Shown: positions 16,221 to 19,972 of the stretch, piece by piece
How positions within the stretch are numbered: the first letter of the stretch is position 1
Layout: each line of letters starts with the position of its first letter
IMG/VR virus record: IMGVR_UViG_3300009149_000313
Span: 1-22,580 of that record
Strand: one strand, 5' to 3'
Length of the DNA: 22,580 bases
DNA from: a virus
Notes under the pieces: model-generated
What the model was told of the DNA's origin: nothing
Seen by the model: the letters and a program-made list of their open reading frames with translations, nothing else
The model's database searches: none
Made by a program: the position numbers and the translations under genes

Positions 16221-16652
16221 TTATAACCTCACTGTTCGTTGTCCTTTGGACATTAAAAATTCCGTTGCTGAATATGGTTGACCTAACTTTAGAACGACAT
16301 GCCCACTTGCGGTAGGAATTGTTGTCGTCACTAAACCAGGAGTTCCGTCACTTAAATAATACTCTTTTGACACGTCAAGTCCAGTGAAGATGCCCGGCGT
16401 GATACCTAGAACTCTTATGTTGCAAGTGTTCACTGTAGGTTTTGATTCCACGGTACCAATGACATTCGAGTTGGCCAGGGAATCCGCCAGGGCGTTTTTG
16501 GCCGTACCATTCGCTTGCATCACAACCGCCGCCGCGATGTAAACACTTCCTTCACATGGGACATTCGCTATAACAACATTCGCTCCGCCGACCGCAGAAG
16601 GATCAACCAAAACATCTTTATTCGAATCAAATCCTTTTAGCTTTAAACTCAT
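16221..16652 (-). CDS. Small virion protein consisting mostly of the shared fibre module
   Basis: 143 residues. Sequence order: VYIAAAVVMQANGTAKNALA, NVIGTVESKP, CNIRVLGITPGIFTGLDVSK, EYYLSDGTPGLVTTTIPTAS, GHVVLKLGQPYSATEFLMSK, then GQRTVRL. This parallels the C-terminal modules of the proteins at 14533-15900 and 16649-17305, so this one could be a single-domain version. Stand-alone forms could be fibre caps or capsid decoration. The ATG overlaps the upstream stop as ATGA, with GGAG before it. The function is inferred only from the shared module and position. Confidence 0.75.
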   Translation of the reverse strand: MSLKLKGFDSNKDVLVDPSAVGGANVVIANVPCEGSVYIAAAVVMQANGTAKNALADSLANSNVIGTVESKPTVNTCNIRVLGITPGIFTGLDVSKEYYLSDGTPGLVTTTIPTASGHVVLKLGQPYSATEFLMSKGQRTVRL

Positions 16653-17305
16653 ACGATCTCCATTGATTCTTCAACTCTCAGGTAAATCGCACCTGTTCCA
16701 AGTGACTCCCCAACCCGAACAACAAATTGCCCAGGAGCGGTTGGGGCGTTTACCCCGATAGAACTATCTGATTGGAGATAAAGTGGTTCGTTTACAGGGA
16801 AGCTATATCCTGCATCTTCATGGATTCCCGAAACTAATATACGAATAACATTTCCCGTGGTGATAGTATCAAGAGCGATACCAACAACTTTAGAATTGCC
16901 GTAAGTGTCTATGGTAGCAAGAGAAGCGGTTGTAGAAGAGTCGAGGCGAACTAACTCTCCCGCATCAATATCTTCCGAAGCGATTTTTTCCAGCACTAAT
17001 TTAGTTGCCTTGTCAACAACGCCAGAAGGGTAACTCCCTCCGCCGCTTACGAAGTAATTATTTATGGATTCTTTTATAGAGGGAATCGATATTTCATTTG
17101 TCTCTAAGGAAGTTCCATCACTGAAATAAAATACCAGATAAAAACTATCTTCCTTTTCCTCTATTTCAATGTTGGTTACGAATGGTGCGTCTTGACCATC
17201 TTTTCCGTTTAGGCCATTTATACCAGGAACCCCAGAAATACCTGGGGAACCTTTTAACCCCACACCAGGAGGGCCTTTTATGTTACCTACTGATATCCAA
17301 CCCAT
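16649..17305 (-). CDS. Collagen-like fibre protein 2 with shared C-terminal module
   Basis: 218 residues from ATG at 17305 (GGGGAAG just upstream); an in-frame GTG at 17344 adds 13 residues that lie wholly inside the opposite-strand HNH gene and has no binding site, so it is unlikely. After MGWISVGNIK come Gly-X-Y triplets from residue 11, with one phase break and then eight clean triplets (GLK to GQD). A short beta region (VTNIEIEEKEDSFYLVFYFS) and Gly-rich linker lead to the C-terminal module, about residues 105-218 (ELVRLDSS, SKVVGIALDT, NEPLYLQSDSSIGVNAPTA, GQFVVRVGESLGTGAIYLRV). Collagen-like triplets form trimeric rods in phage fibres. Its first 26 bases overlap the HNH gene head to head. 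Confidence 0.85.
   Translation of the reverse strand: MGWISVGNIKGPPGVGLKGSPGISGVPGINGLNGKDGQDAPFVTNIEIEEKEDSFYLVFYFSDGTSLETNEISIPSIKESINNYFVSGGGSYPSGVVDKATKLVLEKIASEDIDAGELVRLDSSTTASLATIDTYGNSKVVGIALDTITTGNVIRILVSGIHEDAGYSFPVNEPLYLQSDSSIGVNAPTAPGQFVVRVGESLGTGAIYLRVEESMEIV
17267..17272 (+). promoter_or_regulatory. HNH ribosome binding site inside the antisense of collagen codons
   Basis: AGGAGG on the plus strand, seven bases before the HNH ATG at 17280. It is the exact complement of the two CCT codons for Pro12-Pro13 in the Gly-Pro-Pro triplet of the minus-strand collagen-like gene. The match to the consensus binding site is complete and the spacing is ideal. Confidence 0.8.
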
Positions 17306-17708
17306 TGCTTCCCCGAAATGTGAGTTTGACCTTTGTGATGACACTGTAGTTAAAGGTCGTTATTGTAAAAAACATTTTAATATAGCTAAGGCCCAGCTTA
17401 AAGCCGACCAAGCACAAGACAATCTTAAAATACTTGAAAAGATATACACACATGTAACTGTGAAGAGTGTTAAAGGCTGTCATATATGGCAAGGGCAGCC
17501 TAACGAAAAAGGATATGGGAGATCCACAGTTAATGGTGTTAGGATGTATGTACATAGAATTGTCTACGAAAGAACTAGAGGCGTTGTGGATTTTGGCAAA
17601 ATGCTCCACCACAAATGCGGCAATCGACTTTGTGTTAACCCGGAACACATAGAAGTGGTTAGTCATCTTGAACACGGGAAAAAACATTTGTCGTGGAGAG
17701 GGAAATAA
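17280..17708 (+). CDS. HNH endonuclease (free-standing, homing-type), antisense to the late operon
   Basis: 142 residues and the only plus-strand gene. An N-terminal zinc knuckle (Cys14, Cys19, Cys29, His32; CEFDLCDDTVVKGRYCKKH) resembles that of many phage HNH proteins. The core follows: GCHIWQG (66-72), KGYGRSTVNG, HRIVYERTRG (92-101), then the metal-binding finger LHHKCGNRLCVNPEHIEVV with His110/111, Asn120 and His123 as HNH residues and Cys113/Cys118 as structural ligands. HNH enzymes nick or cut DNA and often spread as intergenic homing genes. It fills the space between two collagen-like genes: its stop is two bases from the end of one and its start overlaps the other by 26 bases. Late transcription is antisense to it, so its expression is uncertain. 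Confidence 0.92.
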   Translation: MLPTDIQPIASPKCEFDLCDDTVVKGRYCKKHFNIAKAQLKADQAQDNLKILEKIYTHVTVKSVKGCHIWQGQPNEKGYGRSTVNGVRMYVHRIVYERTRGVVDFGKMLHHKCGNRLCVNPEHIEVVSHLEHGKKHLSWRGK

Positions 17709-17710
17709 AT

Positions 17711-18652
17711 CTACACCCACTTATACACCTCCCCGGTAGAAATATCTAAATATAGCTGGTCATCCTCCCCTTCTTCTATAGGGGGAGTATCCCCACATAG
17801 AAAAATTGGAGCGGATTCCCCTTTTGCACCTTTTGCACCTTTATTCCCTCTAGGGCCTTTGACTTTCAAGCTGTCAATTTCTTCTTCAGTTAAATCAGTG
17901 AACTTCAATTTCAAGGAGCTCACTTCTTCATCTGACAAATCTGTGAAACGTAATTTAAAAGATTCTTTTGCTTCATTGAAAAACGTATCAAGAACGGAAG
18001 TTATCTCTTCTCGATGTTCATCAATGTTAAAGCCTTTGCCTCTCTGTCCTCTAGGGCCTTTTATCTTTAGGTCGTTTTTCTCATCCTCAGTTAAATCAGA
18101 GAATTTAAGTCTAAGAGATTCTTTTTGATTATTAACGGTTTCACTGAGGATATCTAAAATACGTTCTTCATGTTCGGAGAAAATAAAATCCCGACCACTT
18201 AATCCTCTAGGGCCTACAATTCTTAATTGTTCTAAATCTTCCTCAGTTAAATCAGAAAATTTAAGTTTTAAAGAATCTCTCTCACTATCAAAGATATCTG
18301 ATATCTCTTTAAATATATCGTCTTTATGTTCATCGAACTTAAAACCACGGCCTCTCTGACCTCTAGCACCTTTCAACCCCAATCGTTCTTCAACGGTCAG
18401 GTTTTCAAATTTCAGTTTTAAGGATTCTTTCTCATCTTCCGTTAAATCGGAAAACTTCAGTTTTAAATCTGATTGAATATCTTCAATTTCATTGGATATA
18501 ATTTCAAGGATATCTAAACGGTGCTTATCAAAATCAAAATCTTCCCCGTCTAACCCTTTAGGGCCACGCAAACCGCGCCGGGATTCAATTGGAATATCTT
18601 CAATTCGTTTCTCAATGAGTGCGTTGATTAACGCAAGTAATTTTGAATCCAT
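17711..18652 (-). CDS. Collagen-like repeat fibre protein 1
   Basis: 313 residues built from a long repeat. Collagen-like starts lie at residues 30, 95, 147, 199 and 266 (spacings 65, 52, 52, 67), each Gly-Pro/Ala-Arg/Lys-Gly followed by an acidic [F/I]-[D/S]-x-H block (DFDFDKH, GFKFDEH, DFIFSEH, GFNIDEH), a helical segment and an LKLKFSDLTEDE-type motif. The F-x-x-L-[T/S] motif occurs six times (67, 82, 132, 184, 236, 251), doubled with 15-residue spacing in the two longer units. The end (GDTPPIEEGEDDQLYLDIST then GEVYKWV) is a typical phage-fibre cap. Likely a trimeric, alternately collagen and coiled-coil rod. The gene follows the portal by 33 bases, with only a weak binding site (AGG). 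Confidence 0.88.
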   Translation of the reverse strand: MDSKLLALINALIEKRIEDIPIESRRGLRGPKGLDGEDFDFDKHRLDILEIISNEIEDIQSDLKLKFSDLTEDEKESLKLKFENLTVEERLGLKGARGQRGRGFKFDEHKDDIFKEISDIFDSERDSLKLKFSDLTEEDLEQLRIVGPRGLSGRDFIFSEHEERILDILSETVNNQKESLRLKFSDLTEDEKNDLKIKGPRGQRGKGFNIDEHREEITSVLDTFFNEAKESFKLRFTDLSDEEVSSLKLKFTDLTEEEIDSLKVKGPRGNKGAKGAKGESAPIFLCGDTPPIEEGEDDQLYLDISTGEVYKWV

Positions 18653-18685
18653 TAAAAACCTACTGCGTGTGTAACGAGTTTAGTT

Positions 18686-19972
18686 TTATATTCTTTTCTC
18701 TAGATAGCTTACCACAGCTTCATCTACTTTTTTCTCTTCTTCAGACTTCTCTACAGGCTTGGGGGTTTCTTTCGATTTTATCTGCGCGTCCAACACCTCA
18801 TCCATCCGGTCAATTGGTGTGAAATTATTTGTAGCGATATAGTAACGATCACCTTTTTCATAAGGTGCCATTCCCTCTTTCAACCTAATTTCATTTGGCG
18901 TGATCGATCCCGCTTGCATCATTCGAGAAAAATATTGTGAACGGGTGTCCATGTCACCTCGGAAGATGGCGTAAAGATCCATCTCACTTCGTCGCCCGTC
19001 AAACTGATTAGCTAACAATTTAATGTCAGCTTCCATTTCAAAGTTTCTCGCCCAGGCATCAAGAGTGTCTACTGCGACTTCAAGGTTAGCGTGTTCAACA
19101 TTGTTATAGCTTGATGTTTCGGCGTCATATAATTTAGTTGGGGGAAGTCGTAAGAATCTAGCAACTTCAAGTACGGAAAATTTACGACTCTCAAGAAATT
19201 GCATTACATCTGGTTGGAAAGAAATTGGAGAGTATTTTACACCCTCTTCCAATACCGCAGTACCTCCCACTTTTCGGCCATCGTGAGATGTATTCCAAGA
19301 TTCTTTTAATCTCTTGGCCGCTTCTGAGCTTAATGCGCCGTCAACTGAAAGGACGCCGGAAGGCATCCCGCCATTAGCAAATAAGGAATTAGCAAATTGA
19401 TCCGCTCCAAGAGCTATACCAAGTGTTTCGGCGGCATAGTGCGCCAACCCCTGGCCAACCAAACCGTCGGTTGTATAAAAGTTTTTGATATGGAACATAT
19501 CGCTTGCGGGAATGATTGCATCACTACCAGGATAAGAAACTGATCCCTCAGTTATCCGGTAGTACAACTCTCCATCGATACGCGTAGGTTGAACGTATTC
19601 AGGCTTAATAGGATAAAGTGCTCTTACTCTCCCTGCGGTGTCTCTAACTATTTCAGCGTAACCGTTTCCTTTTGCTAAAGCGCATTGGATTAGAAACAGT
19701 CTGAAAGAGAAAGAGTTCATTTCAGGATTAGGACGAAGGCGTAACAATTCGGCCAAACGACCATCTTGCACGTTATTGTTCTTATCTTTAATCTCCCAAG
19801 GGAGTTTTGCTATCTGAGTGGAAATGTAAATAACACCCGAATAAAAAGCTGAAACCTTCATAGCAGATTCAGGGTTAACTGAAGTCCCTGCGTTCCATGT
19901 ATAAAGATTACGTGTTACCGCCGGTTCTTCCGCGACGGACTTCTTTTTAGCAAAAAATGATTTCCATCCCAT
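18686..19972 (-). CDS. Portal protein, HK97 family
   Basis: 428 residues, the usual length. The family pattern is clear: VSAFYSGVIYISTQIAKLPW (39-60), MNSFSFRLFLIQCALAKGNG near 85-105, LYPIKPEYVQPTR, FHIKNFYTTDGLVGQGLAHY, ALGADQFANSLFANGGMPSG, and FSVLEVARFLRLPPTKLYD near 268-287, then YAIFRGDMDTRSQYFSRMMQ. The last 50 residues are charged and variable. It forms the dodecameric DNA gate at one capsid vertex and binds terminase. The start overlaps the preceding stop by one base (TAATG). Its place downstream of the capsid gene is not the common HK97 order, in which the portal precedes the protease. Confidence 0.96.
   Translation of the reverse strand: MGWKSFFAKKKSVAEEPAVTRNLYTWNAGTSVNPESAMKVSAFYSGVIYISTQIAKLPWEIKDKNNNVQDGRLAELLRLRPNPEMNSFSFRLFLIQCALAKGNGYAEIVRDTAGRVRALYPIKPEYVQPTRIDGELYYRITEGSVSYPGSDAIIPASDMFHIKNFYTTDGLVGQGLAHYAAETLGIALGADQFANSLFANGGMPSGVLSVDGALSSEAAKRLKESWNTSHDGRKVGGTAVLEEGVKYSPISFQPDVMQFLESRKFSVLEVARFLRLPPTKLYDAETSSYNNVEHANLEVAVDTLDAWARNFEMEADIKLLANQFDGRRSEMDLYAIFRGDMDTRSQYFSRMMQAGSITPNEIRLKEGMAPYEKGDRYYIATNNFTPIDRMDEVLDAQIKSKETPKPVEKSEEEKKVDEAVVSYLEKRI

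Follow-up and report, generated by a model that had tools for sequence, protein, structure and literature searches.

How two genes come to overlap at their starts, each with the start signal of the other on its opposite strand, is the question raised by a viral sequence of 22,580 nucleotides (IMG/VR record IMGVR_UViG_3300009149_000313), hereafter the window. An HNH gene on the plus strand (17280-17708) and a collagen-like gene on the minus strand (16649-17305) are arranged head-to-head and share 26 bp (17280-17305). The AGGAGG located 7 nt 5' of the HNH ATG is the exact complement of the CCT CCT codons for Pro-Pro in the GNIKG-PP-G stretch of the collagen-like protein. In turn, the ATG of the collagen-like gene is preceded, at a distance of 2 nt, by GGGGAAG, which lies opposite the HNH codons gcT TCC CCg (Ala-Ser-Pro). 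These bases bear out an earlier note on this DNA, according to which the Shine-Dalgarno (SD)-like site of each gene sits antisense within codons of the other.

The same note took the HNH gene for a homing gene settled in a collagen-like gene, and saw in Gly-Pro-Pro (GPP) repeats a general reason for such settling. The exchanged antisense start signals stand, and so does the homing gene in the collagen-like gene as the most likely reading; GPP supply as a general reason is not supported. The note had overlooked that the minus-strand ORF at 17711-18652 and the collagen-like gene are two halves of one fibre gene (Table 1). Since the HNH gene split one fibre gene, the reciprocal start signals can be read as a by-product, and a signature, of the insertion junction.

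Table 1. Features of the split tail-fibre locus in the window
Feature	Position	Strand	Basis and remarks
N-terminal part of split collagen-like tail-fibre gene (P0003, 313 aa)	17711..18652	-	ORF; ends ..LYLDISTGEVYKWV (stop)
First half of interrupted fibre module (..GDTPPIEEGEDDQLYLDISTGEVYKWV)	17714..17791	-	alignment with L011 and seven named phages
Inserted segment	17304..17713	+	boundaries to about ±6 nt; module spacing
HNH endonuclease gene, 142 aa, ATG start	17280..17708	+	ORF; zinc-finger-like N-terminus and HNH_3 domain (residues 90-133)
GGGGAAG, SD-like site of C-terminal fibre part	17308..17314	-	inside HNH insert; sequence; -5.7 kcal/mol, moderate
New start codon ATG of C-terminal fibre part	17303..17305	-	at/across insertion junction; sequence
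HNH start codon and first eight codons (MLPTDIQP)	17280..17303	+	fibre-derived DNA antisense to GWISVGNI; fibre module alignment
AGGAGG, predicted SD site of HNH gene	17267..17272	+	antisense to fibre CCT CCT (Pro-Pro); -10.8 kcal/mol
Second half of interrupted fibre module (GWISVGNIKGPPGVG..)	17258..17302	-	alignment with L011 and seven named phages
C-terminal part of split fibre gene (P0002, 218 aa)	16649..17305	-	ORF; starts MGWISVGNIKGPPG..

A tail-fibre gene divided by an HNH insertion

Comparison with relatives shows that one tail-fibre gene has been divided by the HNH insertion into the two parts listed in Table 1. In the best relative found, the IMG/VR contig L003 (47% identity), one 651-aa ORF spans both window halves; P0003 is 46-47% identical to its N-terminal portion, and P0002 aligns with the C-terminal portion of the single fibre ORFs of L003, L011, L014 and L022. 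The fibre is one continuous ORF at this place in L003, L011, L014-L017, L019, L020 and L022, and the contig-truncated ORFs of L018 and L021 are likewise uninterrupted through the region. As in other genes in pieces, an ancestral single gene is now represented by two intact ORFs flanking a nuclease gene and, as expected of a free-standing homing gene, the insertion is missing at the same place in relatives. P0003 and P0002 also lie in one frame. Two side observations concern the relatives themselves. A frameshift in L023:4188-5974, compared with the near-identical L022:3549-5336, produces two overlapping fibre ORFs, possibly through a sequencing error or a second fission. The L011 fibre (L011:2852-5299) ends in a domain that has its own small gene in the window (16221-16652) and in L003, which points to genes having been fused or split at the opposite end of this fibre.

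The position of the break can be located within a short module of the pattern ..VYK-xNGx-W..GNIKGP. This module is uninterrupted in L011, where it reads CDVFKMENGEWIKQTNIRGAKG, and in seven named phages (Boilgate, Hena1, phiC31 (gp49), Atu_ph07, Francob, Shady and PVP-SE1); L003 is without the exact module that is interrupted in the window. Taken together, the single-ORF relatives and the uninterrupted module in L011 and the seven phages lead us to conclude that the HNH gene split one fibre gene. The spacing from Tyr/Phe to Trp is six residues in L011 and in six of the seven phages, and seven in Francob. The window module retains K-W-V and G, and therefore two host codons are missing. The 411 nt between the flanking host codons, less these 6 nt, give a net gain of 405 nt, which is the length of 17304-17708, i.e. 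HNH codon 9 (ATT) through its stop. The ends of the insert are uncertain by about 6 nt, because a near-identical empty allele was not found and the boundaries rest on protein spacing. AlphaFold2 modelling of the L011 module (residues 21-40 with a mean pLDDT of 84-86) gave strands at residues 30-35 and 38-44 joined by a turn at N36-G37, the position of the insert, so that the insertion point is predicted to fall in a beta-turn.

The collagen-like fibres of phiC31 (gp49) and Erwinia phage Hena1 carry the same short beta-hairpin module (W-x3-GNIKG) between collagen-like segments, continuous there whereas it is interrupted in the window fibre. In the Hena1 tail fibre (L118) the W-x3-GNI(K/R)G module occurs at least four times between collagen-like stretches. 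Pfam and PHROG searches of the window fibre halves did not name it.

Closer relatives were looked for in several ways. No DNA-level relatives of the window were found in the phage collection, no prophage relatives were confirmed in genome contigs for either the fibre or the HNH gene, and P0002 led to no closer HNH-free relatives. A search with the neighbouring gene yielded the HNH-free relatives L022 and L023, both without the module, and the closest module-bearing relative is L011 at 35% identity.

The inserted gene encodes a protein that matches PF13392 (HNH_3; E=6.8e-12, 45.3 bits against a curated cut-off of 24.8) and phrog_1872 (E=3.9e-27). It keeps the HNH_3 positions H92, H111, C113, R116, C118, N120 and H123, and its N-terminus has a zinc-finger-like C-x4-C-x9-C-x2-H arrangement that begins at 17319. 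The AlphaFold2 model has a pLDDT of 92.7; confidence is lower (73) for the first ten residues, which show no regular structure. Among PDB structures the model is closest to the homing endonuclease I-PpoI (E=0.016, probability 0.96); NFIC and Smad MH1 domains come next, and all of these E-values are weak. The predicted fold thus bears a weak resemblance to homing endonucleases. A sequence search of the PDB returned no match for the HNH protein or the fibre module.

The same two insert junctions are found in IMGVR_UViG_3300024262_003347, a contig whose metagenome has a different identifier and which is 99.5% identical over 5315 bp. Since the split allele is present in a second, distinguishable strain, an assembly chimera is unlikely. 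The strains differ by 28 SNPs, 24 of which are synonymous; the HNH gene has none, and five fall in P0003 (four synonymous, one nonsynonymous). The presence in two strains and this SNP pattern weakly suggest that function has been maintained. The near-twin contig (L027:1-7) stops directly at the HNH SD with the five bases GATAT (GATATC with the next base), where the window has CACAC; this may reflect an artefact of the assembly at the contig end or a real difference between alleles. GATATC also occurs at window 17292-17297.

Start signals on the opposite strands

Among the 696 ATGs of the window, that of the HNH gene has the strongest predicted pairing between its SD site and the 16S tail (-10.8 kcal/mol), a value not attained at any of the 671 non-gene ATGs. 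The predicted pairing at the minus-gene site beats 94% of non-gene ATGs and is weaker than about 70% of other gene starts. The HNH gene is the only plus-strand gene in the window, and no sigma-70-like promoter was found on that strand within 640 bp upstream of it.

HNH relatives with the same zinc-finger-like N-terminus begin 2-4 residues before the first Cys (MTKKC, MNKC, MRFC, MKC, MIEIC, MTRC), i.e. with the pattern M-T/K/R-(K)-C; the HNH protein of Malisha (L032) is annotated longer, with an internal Met two residues before the Cys. In the window protein the first Cys does not appear until position 14, and the fibre-antisense stretch makes up residues 1-8. Considering where the related proteins begin, the original start of the window copy has apparently been lost. 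Initiation at the next in-frame start codon would delete the zinc finger, and ATT at 17304, the first codon of the insert, was rejected as a start because it lacks an SD. With these later starts ruled out, the ATG and AGGAGG of the HNH gene lie in host fibre DNA, on the opposite strand. For P0002, GTG at 17344 was tried as a start and rejected, also for want of an SD.

The anatomy of both starts can be read directly from the junction, whereas their use is our inference: the HNH gene would be translated from the ATG and AGGAGG on the fibre's antisense strand, and the C-terminal fibre half would use the junction ATG and the SD-like site from the opposite strand of the HNH gene. L011 has GAKG where the window fibre has GPPG, and AGGAGG could have evolved after the insertion instead of preceding it.

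Alternative readings of the locus

If the fibre had already consisted of two adjacent genes, the HNH gene would merely have settled between them and nothing would have been split. Phage homing genes are usually intergenic, and several HNH relatives do lie antisense between structural genes (L064, L067, L097, L100). We nevertheless regard this history as very unlikely, since a single fibre ORF runs through the region in all relatives checked (frameshifted in L023), and the facing ends in the window are complementary halves of one known module with its middle turn missing. The possibility that the HNH gene resides within a self-splicing intron or another spliced element, so that the fibre is made whole, is hardly credible, even though many phage HNH genes are intron-borne and the insert is about 3n long. 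Of the roughly 411 nt of the insert, 405 encode the HNH protein on the other strand and ~6 nt are non-coding, so that a ribozyme would not fit. Frame analysis also found numerous stop codons in the minus frame across the insert. An Rfam search of 16500-18700 gave no intron match at E≤5. An intron or intein was rejected on these grounds; the HNH gene lies outside either element, as a free-standing gene does, and a group I intron ribozyme core is missing. A 145-codon minus-strand ORF (17283-17720) spans the entire HNH insert on the strand opposite the HNH gene and is probably a shadow ORF; a minus-strand frameshift joining P0003 to it was rejected, because the stop is reached out of frame with P0002.

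A recent or destructive insertion would leave the fibre inactivated and P0002 untranslated, with the antisense SD and ATG present by chance or unused. The lack of a visible plus-strand promoter, the moderate start of P0002 and a second strain just 28 SNPs away would agree with it, but we consider it unlikely: the ORFs of the two fibre parts and of the HNH gene are all intact, two distinguishable strains carry the allele, and the HNH SD is the strongest of all window ATGs, while for a random antisense start-less ORF an SD of -8 kcal/mol or better is in frame at only about 0.6% of position and frame combinations in other window genes and about 0.4% in the fibres of six relatives. That collagen-type GPP codons generally attract antisense homing genes by offering ready-made SD sites, as the earlier note suggested, seems to us highly improbable. 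The HNH SD here is truly antisense to Pro-Pro codons; however, GPP is rare, being found once in about 22 G-x-x triplets of the window fibre and never in about 205 across the fibres of six relatives. Antisense SD sites of -6 kcal/mol or better are capturable at 2.3% of insertion positions and frames in fibres and at 2.4% in other genes, so they are not enriched in fibres; the capture of a start by the HNH gene is therefore notable, yet fibre genes are not special. A database search for the antisense GNIKGPP motif with GGAGG returned six IMG/VR contigs, with an HNH gene at this place only in the near-twin, and a second case appeared neither in this pattern scan nor in a survey of 80 HNH loci.

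Known split genes and the proposed origin

The closest known kind of locus is the gene in pieces formed by a free-standing homing endonuclease; the antisense orientation and the exchanged start signals are new here. In a review (PMC2988022), nrdA of Aeromonas phage Aeh1 is described as split by the HNH homing endonuclease gene mobE ('genes in pieces') with its function retained. As in Aeh1, a free-standing HNH gene in the window divides a coding sequence into two ORFs, without intron or intein, and relatives are continuous. In Aeh1 the interrupted gene encodes an enzyme and mobE is equipped with a regulated RBS of its own (PMC2988022), whereas in the window a tail-fibre gene is interrupted and the HNH start signals are found on its other strand; the Aeh1 split product was shown to be functional, whereas the split in the window is known from sequence. 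The same review gives topoisomerase gene 60 of T4, split by mobA, and the split gene 43 of Aeromonas phage 25 with seg43. In both, as in the window, insertion or association of a homing gene divides a functional gene; both are enzymes rather than a structural fibre, and antisense sharing of starts is not described for them in the available part of the review (PMC2988022). The window HNH gene is antisense to its host gene, whereas the same orientation is usual, although not required, for genes in pieces.

The segD gene of T4 belongs to the GIY-YIG class. Like the window HNH gene, it is a free-standing homing endonuclease gene antisense to its neighbours with expression in doubt; unlike it, segD has transcription terminators up- and downstream and, in the available part of the source, is not described as splitting a gene (PMC2988022). 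The portion of a phage nuclease survey at hand lists many interrupted genes and describes no case like that of the window (PMC10448857).

Phage HNH_3 endonucleases of phrog_1872 and phrog_3593, for instance in Aeromonas phage AsXd-1 and Brevibacterium phage Rousseau, combine a zinc-finger-like N-terminus with HNH_3 as in the window. The window copy differs in that these proteins start 2-4 residues before the first Cys and are encoded co-directionally between genes. Among 80 HNH relatives, in loci with crude gene calling, none showed an HNH gene inside a split gene with its start on the host's other strand. Two loci, L055 and L061, resembled antisense HNH insertions inside genes and were rejected, since the DNA is GC-rich and the ORFs are shadow ORFs. 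Contigs of the relatives L003 and L014 carry further free-standing genes of the HNH_3 homing type, each running in the same direction as its neighbours: L125 (1336-1965) beside a large tail gene and L124 (1264-1842) beside a terminase gene. The lineage therefore seems prone to such genes.

We consider it likely that a free-standing HNH homing gene of ~405 nt was copied antisense into a single-copy gene for a collagen-like tail fibre, at the turn of a beta-hairpin module, an event that would have left two separately read ORFs with exchanged starts. A near-identical allele without the HNH gene would be expected to read ..VYKW-V-x-x-GWISVGNIKGPPG.. in one frame. The inserted gene, without a recognisable start of its own, would be read from the fibre-antisense ATG and AGGAGG (antisense to GNI and PP), adding eight fibre-antisense residues to its N-terminus, and the C-terminal fibre half would receive the junction ATG and an SD-like site from the opposite HNH strand. 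Like other phage homing endonucleases, the HNH protein would then cut uninterrupted alleles at this conserved site, and repair would spread its gene. With the break located in a surface turn that lies between collagen-like segments, assembly of the two fibre parts has probably been retained.

More generally, and only tentatively, a homing cassette consisting of coding sequence alone, without an RBS or usable start, might establish itself antisense behind a chance SD and ATG while donating a start to the severed half, so that both genes remain readable. If the locus works as proposed, a mobile nuclease gene could be expressed after landing backward inside another gene, by means of signals already present on the wrong strand. 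A phage structural gene could then be broken into two without loss, turning a tail fibre into a two-part protein, and the HNH protein would be a case of a protein whose new N-terminus came from the antisense strand of a gene unrelated to it.
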